Shown one piece after another: positions 8,072 to 10,104 of a stretch of DNA of 64,000 nucleotides; position 1 is the stretch's first letter; every line of letters starts with the position of its first letter. Where the stretch lies: the NCBI RefSeq assembly GCF_039392895.1, contig NZ_CP135027.1, forward strand, positions 62,001 to 126,000. Direction: 5' to 3'. Under the pieces are notes generated by a model. That model did no database searches and was not told the origin of the DNA. It was given only the letters and a program-made list of their open reading frames with translations. Origin of the DNA: Buchnera aphidicola (Mindarus keteleerifoliae) (GTDB lineage Bacteria; Pseudomonadota; Gammaproteobacteria; Enterobacterales; Enterobacteriaceae). Made by a program: the position numbers and the translations under genes.

Positions 8072-10104
8072 ATGAAAAAAATTAGAGAAGAAATTTCTAT
8101 GTTAAAAAAAAAATTACCTTTTATAATTATAGATATCATACATTAAATGAATCAGTTATATCTGACGTAAAGTATGATTTTTTAGTAAAAAAATTGTGCT
8201 TTTTAGAAAAAAAGTATAATTTTTTAAAAGATAAAGAGAGTGTAACTTCAAAAATAGGAGGCCCGTTATTATCAACTTTTAAACCTATTAGACATATTTT
8301 TCCAATGCTTTCATTGGAAAATGTTTATAATAAGAAGGAATTTTTATCGTTTATACAGAAAATAAAAAGTATAGATACAAAATATTTAAATAGAAAAGAT
8401 TTTTTTTGTTGTGAGTTAAAATTAGATGGTTTAGCATTAAATATAATGTATGAGAATGGTGTTCTCAAATGGGCAACTACGAGAGGAAATGGAACATATG
8501 GAGAAGATGTTACACAAAATGCGAAAAAGATTAAGTCTATACCTAAAAAATTGTCGGGAAAAAACATACCTAAAAGAATAGAAATAAGAGGGGAGGTTTT
8601 TATTCCTTTAAAAAGTTTTTTAGAATTGAATAAAAAAATGTTATTAAACAATCAAAAAATTTTTTCTAATCCAAGGAATGCCGCAGCAGGTTCTTTAAGA
8701 CAACTCAGTTCTTCTGTTATTACAGAAAGAAATTTGACGTTTTTGTGTCATGGATATGGTGTTTACAAAGGAGAAAAAGAAACCAAAACTCATTATGAAA
8801 GATTAAATTTGTTCAAAATTTGGGGAATACCTATTAATGAAATGAAATTATGTTCTACGATTTCAGAAATTTTTTCTTATTATGATTTTAATAATAAAAA
8901 TAGAAAACTATTAGATTTTGGTGTTGATGGAATCGTAATAAAAATTAATTCATTATCTTTTCAGAATTTGTTAGGAAATACAAGAAAGTTTCCAAAATGG
9001 GCTATAGCATTTAAATTTCCAGCAGAAGAGCAAAATACTACATTAATTGGTGTTGATTTCAAAGTAGGAAGAACGGGAGTGATTACACCTGTAGCAAAAA
9101 TAAAACCTATATATCTTTCAAATGTGTTGATTAAAAATGTTTCTTTATATAATGAAAATCAAATTAAAAAATTTGATTTACATATAAATGATCAAATAAC
9201 CGTTTGTCGTTCAGGGGATGTAATTCCTAAAATAGTAAATGTGTTGTTTAAATGTAGAACAAAAAATTGTAAAAAAATAATTTTTCCTAAAAATTGTCCT
9301 ATTTGCGATGCAAAAATTAGAAAATTAAATAAACAAGGTTTATCTTATTGCATTGGAGGGATGAAATGTTTAGCACAATTTAAGAAATCAGTTTTTCATT
9401 TTTTTTCAAAAGATGCATTGAATGTTACTGGATTAGGATATCGGACCATAGATATTCTTTTTAATTCCGAAATTATTAAAAATATTTCGGATTTCTTTTT
9501 TTTGGATGTTAATATTTTATCGAAAATAAAAAATTTTGGAAAAAGATCTGCAAATAAACTTATTTTGAGTATTTCAAAATCTAAAAAAACAACCTTATCT
9601 CGTTTTTTGTATGGTTTAGGAATTTTTGATGTGGGAATAGTAACAGCTAAAAGAGTTTCTTTTCATTTTAAATCTATAAAAAAAATTCTGATTTCTAGTT
9701 TAGAAGATTTCAAATTCATAAAAAATATAGGTTTAGAAATTTCTTTAAATATATATAGTTTTATGCAAAATCAAGCAAATAGAAATTTGATTTTTAGTTT
9801 ACTAGAACATTTATCATTCGTAAAAGAAGAGAGTCTTATAGATATAAGTAATAAAAGTTTTAAGGGTTCTATTTTTTTTAATAAGAAAATTGTTCTTACT
9901 GGTAAATTCAAATTATACAAAAGAATTTGGATAGAAAATAAATTAATTCTTTTAGGCGCTAAGGTAAATAAATGTTTGTCAAAGAAAACCGATTTTTTAA
10001 TTTTTGGAAAAAAACCAGGTAGGAAAATAGTTCAATCTGAAATCATGAATATTAAAAGAATTGATGAAAATGAGTTGTATTTGGAGTTGAAAAAATATTT
10101 TTAA
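8072..10104 (+). CDS. ligA: NAD-dependent DNA ligase, with a poly(A) frameshift near the N-terminus
   Basis: LigA seals nicks in DNA during replication and repair, using NAD. From the ATG at 8072 (AAGGA site upstream) the frame reads [15 protein letters not shown] and then stops at 8144. In the -1 frame the expected family sequence resumes at once ([19 protein letters not shown]) and stays open to 10104. The shift lies in a run of ten A at 8104-8113; eleven A would restore one frame of about 677 codons, close to E. coli LigA (671). Downstream the protein is complete. It has the adenylated Lys in [10 protein letters not shown], the [13 protein letters not shown] block, the [14 protein letters not shown]-fold motif, four zinc cysteines (CPICDA, then two more), helix-hairpin-helix repeats and a C-terminal BRCT domain. 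Rescue by RNA-polymerase slippage at the A tract is likely for an essential gene. Confidence 0.9.

Follow-up and report, generated by a model that had tools for sequence, protein, structure and literature searches.

The DNA analysed here (referred to below as the window) is a stretch of 64,000 nucleotides from Buchnera aphidicola of the aphid Mindarus keteleerifoliae. It contains ligA, the gene of the NAD+-dependent DNA ligase, which is split near its 5' end by a run of ten adenines (Table 1). The original prediction had described this split, and direct reading of the sequence confirms it: the frame opened by a normal start codon soon closes, and the rest of LigA stands in the -1 frame. The genomic context of the tract is TTA AAA AAA AAA TTA, which turns into TTA AAA AAA AAA ATT after the addition of one A. 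As had also been predicted, one extra A restores a full-length ligase; it is 677 aa long and shows the expected Pfam matches to domain Ia, the adenylation domain, OB, HhH and BRCT, in this order. The match to Nlig-Ia crosses the tract (residues 4-51, E 8.6e-5), with a score of 23.6 bits that is below the curated cut-off of 27.

Table 1. Features of the ligA locus (positions in the window)
Feature	Position	Strand	Remark
Shine-Dalgarno-like AAGGA	8062..8066	+	5 nt upstream of the ligA start codon; read from the sequence
5' coding part of ligA, start frame, ahead of the tract	8072..8103	+	from ATG 8072
A10 tract, frame break and proposed slippage site	8104..8113	+	identical place in L002, L003 and L004
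TAA closing the unslipped ligA frame after 24 codons	8144..8146	+	same place in all three Mindarus-type genomes
Remaining LigA (rest of domain Ia, adenylation, OB, HhH, BRCT), -1 frame	8113..10104	+	

The LigA frame, read directly from the sequence, is open from 8086 to 10104. A standard start codon within it, as an alternative to ATG 8072, was rejected, since no ATG, GTG or TTG occurs in the frame from 8086 up to TTG 8194. A start at this TTG lies beyond most of domain Ia, and most of the NAD+-binding domain would be lost. The first helix of LigA is rich in lysines encoded by AAA, a codon found 1952 times across the genes of the 64-kb region vs. 191 times for AAG, and this part of ligA is a natural hot spot. 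Slippage-rescued symbiont genes are recognised by a single small indel in an A/T run of at least nine in a gene that is otherwise open, which is what ligA displays at its A10.

Conservation of the break and state of the gene

The window genome was compared with two others of the same genus, G002 (probably the symbiont of M. japonicus) and G001. The chromosomes measure 542,511 bp (plus two small further contigs) in the window genome, 541,202 bp in G002 and 540,092 bp in G001, and LigA of the window genome is 69-70% identical to that of both relatives. The leucine plasmid of the window genome shares 99.8% identity with the one known from Buchnera of M. keteleerifoliae, and the plasmid of G001 shares 88% with its M. 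japonicus counterpart. The original prediction had called for a comparison with sister strains: TTAAAAAAAAAATT is found at the identical codon in both relatives, and the A10, the break and the TAA downstream of it all coincide with those of the window genome. Ahead of the tract the relatives encode the N-termini MKKIKKSISIL and MKKIKKDISIL, and both have GGAG at the corresponding position before the start. In all three genomes a similarity search matched LigA from residue 10 onward only. Frameshifts common to strains or species have been assigned to an ancient class, and the ligA break is common to three genomes of the genus. Distances among the Mindarus genes in the LigA tree are ~0.3 to 0.5 changes per site, somewhat below the 0.72 that separates Artemisaphis from Macrosiphoniella; on this scale the break in Mindarus symbionts would be old, if inherited.

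Downstream of the tract, ligA evolves under ordinary purifying selection, comparable to that on other genes of the region. The mean dN/dS of this part is 0.25 (dN 0.167, dS 0.671), which places it 41st among 56 genes with a regional median of 0.20. The portion of domain Ia just after the tract behaves like the rest of the gene (dN of 0.12-0.20 vs. dS of 0.55-1.04). A domain search of the window genome assembly revealed one NAD-ligase adenylation domain, with neither a second one nor a match to an ATP-type ligase, and the idea of a missed second ligase was dropped on these grounds. The original prediction had held the NAD ligase to be essential, and this is borne out. Given the same break in three genomes, continuing selection and no second ligase found, the break must somehow be bridged when the message is read. 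Very probably the cell mends the message each time, and RNA-polymerase slippage is the most likely means. The only recognised DNA ligase of the cell would thus have long been sitting behind a coding error that needs repair at every expression event, and annotation of the gene as a pseudogene would wrongly imply a symbiont devoid of ligase.

ligA in other Buchnera lineages

The N-termini of 39 ligA genes from small AT-rich genomes of the family were compared, most of them recognisable as Buchnera (neighbours gltX and cysK). The start is intact in most of the 39, and several of these carry A10 or A11 runs in frame. The Buchnera of Kurisakia and Ceratoglyphina possess an intact A11 at an aligned Leu-Lys-Lys-Lys-Ile, i.e., at the Mindarus position, which suggests an A11 ancestry of the Mindarus gene. 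In an Anoecia oenotherae-like genome (G204) ligA is broken at an A9 and needs +1. In a Taiwanaphis decaspermi-like (G040) and a Neophyllaphis-like (G020) genome A9 breaks occur at codons common to these two and need -1 or +2. In the Taiwanaphis gene the LigA frame contains a TTG a few codons beyond the break, from which a shortened protein could conceivably start. The LigA tree places the six broken genes at three separate points; its deep branches are weak, and the origins may be fewer.

Breaks therefore recur in one gene, ligA, and form a natural series, with A10 in three Mindarus-type symbionts, in-frame A11 in those of Kurisakia and Ceratoglyphina, and A9 breaks in other lineages. Such a series allows one to ask whether drift lets the breaks persist or whether they are retained as a form of control.

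Other poly(A) breaks are present in the Anoecia and Taiwanaphis regions, so that ligA is not uniquely fragile there. Within ~40 genes of the Anoecia-like region (L207, G204) two genes near each other are broken, one at an A14 (~30840-30930, minus strand) and a fabB-like one at an A10 (~31820-31930, plus strand; joined-region positions); fabB is normally essential. Within ~40 genes of the Taiwanaphis-like region (L204, G040) a dapE-like gene is broken at an A11 (joined-region position ~22903), and a dapA-like gene nearby (~24922, minus strand) appears to lack a standard start codon beside an A10 run. The other end of LigA varies as well. In several Buchnera (L147, L149, L155, L158 and others) the LigA frame ends at ~575-600 residues, without BRCT, and some of these genes contain in-frame stops with similarity reaching slightly beyond.

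How the message may be read

We favour, with a probability of about 0.72, the explanation that an ancestral loss of one A was followed by retention of the A10, the gene staying functional through RNA-polymerase slippage that adds one A. The common ancestor of the three sampled Mindarus Buchnera would have passed from A11 to A10 and its descendants would have kept A10 since. The polymerase would slip on the A10 template, a fraction of transcripts would gain one A, and these A11 transcripts would bring ATG 8072 into frame with the remainder of ligA. The unslipped mRNA would yield a 24-residue peptide only. Failed translation would be cheap, since the tract is only 11 codons from the start. Rescue by slippage had been put forward in the original prediction, and it is the reading best supported by precedent (PMC5009743; PMC3017870), both the RNA-level mechanism and its efficiency in ligA being inferred; the prediction is to be qualified in that one added A and a -1 ribosomal shift give the identical 677-aa NAD+ ligase. 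In Buchnera nearly all transcriptional insertions occur in A/T runs and are mostly of single bases; their frequency grows exponentially as the run lengthens, up to 11 (PMC5574713). In frameshifted symbiont genes 12-50% of transcripts are corrected at long poly(A) runs (PMC5009743). What counts against slippage is that the same Buchnera transcriptome study reported no event restoring a frame (PMC5574713) and, as to slippage being the sole reading, that a ribosomal slip sequence, A-AAA-AAA, lies within the ligA A10.

Poly(A) frameshifts rescued by transcriptional slippage were described in Buchnera and Blochmannia by Tamas et al. (2008, PNAS), as covered in a review (PMC5009743). Like ligA, the genes concerned belong to AT-rich insect symbionts and are intact apart from a one-base break in a long run of A. 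According to the review, they are cell-wall genes plus one histidine gene, whereas ligA encodes a DNA replication enzyme. Wernegreen et al. (2010, Mol Biol Evol), as cited in PMC3017870, reported ancient Blochmannia frameshifts kept by selection; there too the break persists from species to species and the genes show no signs of erosion. That replication genes can be affected is shown by the frameshifts in dnaX and dnaG of Blochmannia (PMC3017870). The Blochmannia cases concern another genus and other genes, whereas the ligA breaks occur at different positions in several lineages of Buchnera. Thermus dnaX resembles ligA in having an A run in a replication gene, with slippage giving mixed mRNA lengths (PMC5009743, PMC8254509), but both dnaX products are functional, whereas the unslipped ligA product is a 24-residue dead end. 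The literature searched, with most subscription journals outside its reach, contained no report of a ligA frameshift in Buchnera. Poly(A) frameshifts that have persisted for long are already on record for both Blochmannia and Buchnera, and ligA is notable as an essential single-copy gene and for the recurrence of its breaks.

The main rival, which seems unlikely as the full account, is -1 ribosomal frameshifting, in which tandem Lys-tRNAs slip on A AAA AAA and the same protein is made from an mRNA that is uniformly A10. This slippery heptamer of the X XXY YYZ type lies inside the run in all three genomes, and a three-sequence consensus fold places a weak 7-bp A-U-rich helix 8 nt past the tract. 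The helix has no two-sided changes, however, and appears in one of three single-sequence folds; three sequences give little power. A stronger hairpin begins ~75 nt downstream of the tract, which is too distant. No common SD-like element was seen by eye directly upstream of the run, where the codons differ among the three genomes. The consensus and single folds provided no convincing ribosomal stimulator near the tract. The Oenothera chloroplast atpB gene is similar to ligA in that a frameshift lies in a 5' oligo(A) run and full-length protein is still made. There the ribosome does most of the correcting at an A11 run, and transcript slippage was not detectable (PMC8254509), whereas transcriptional slippage is preferred for ligA. 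In the Neophyllaphis-like and Taiwanaphis genes, where -1 nt or +2 nt is required, a ribosomal -1 slip would be of no help, but RNA slippage could rescue such A9-broken genes too. We rank slippage first, with the ribosome possibly contributing.

To the same limited degree we entertain the notion that A10 has been selected as a throttle, the slippage rate setting the output of ligA low. This would explain why A10 is kept in three Mindarus-type symbionts despite an easy one-base expansion to A11, and would also account for the breaks at N-terminal A runs of ligA in other Buchnera lineages (at least one, probably two).

An error of assembly or sequencing, with a true tract of A11 and an intact ligA, appears quite improbable. 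In its favour, homopolymer lengths are easily misread, and a single laboratory and pipeline is the probable source of two of the three genomes (PMC11193766). In that study Illumina NovaSeq 2x150 reads were assembled with MEGAHIT/NOVOPlasty and corrected with Pilon (PMC11193766); taken to apply to the window genome, these methods argue against such an error. The original prediction had allowed for an assembly one A short; this is unlikely, since three genomes agree and would have to slip at the same base. A survey of frame breaks in 56 ortholog triples of the 64-kb region, complemented by a comparison with two outgroup Buchnera (G406, G294), detected no convincing break in the ~55 other genes in any of the three genomes, and ligA alone remained. 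Base calling does not stop at ten, since these sequences contain runs of A11-A13 at other places.

Equally improbable is translation from an AUU start at 8113-8115, just past the run, which would give LigA minus its first 14 residues with no frameshift. Each of the six broken genes has an ATT after its run, in the LigA frame, and the part of domain Ia past the tract would be retained. Against this, AUU starts are very rare in enterobacteria, and all three species preserve the normal ATG with its SD sequence as well as a short leader that codes for the N-terminus of the family.

The least probable possibility is that ligA is a dying pseudogene and nicks are sealed by a host or other enzyme: poly(A) frameshifts are regarded as a first step of gene loss in such symbionts (PMC3017870), but ~660 codons remain stop-free in three species at a dN/dS of about 0.25, and the window genome has no other ligase match.

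Run lengths and other genes of the region

Among A10/A11 runs in intact genes of the region, one of 13 has the same length in both relatives, and among A9 runs 7 of 35 do. The unchanged A10 of ligA is therefore mildly unusual on this count. The one conserved case is in cca (window ~2008-2017), an in-frame A10 encoding LLKKKY, identical in length in all three Mindarus-type symbionts, where slippage would harm the protein. Conservation of tract length as sole proof of selection was rejected, because cca also keeps its in-frame A10.

Several further candidates turned out to be false alarms of the start-codon scan, i.e., an aroH-like gene at 53276, ptsI (4541-6250) and several antisense ORFs. In the flagellar cluster, fliF (window 12487-13971) is without roughly 40-100 C-terminal residues of other Buchnera in all three genomes, and between fliF and fliO, where further flagellar genes sit in other Buchnera, there is no long ORF. 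The fliO-fliP pair (14540-15680) was considered as a second common frameshift and discarded: these are two separate, overlapping genes in the Mindarus symbionts and a single fused ORF of 375-379 aa in the outgroups G406 and G294.
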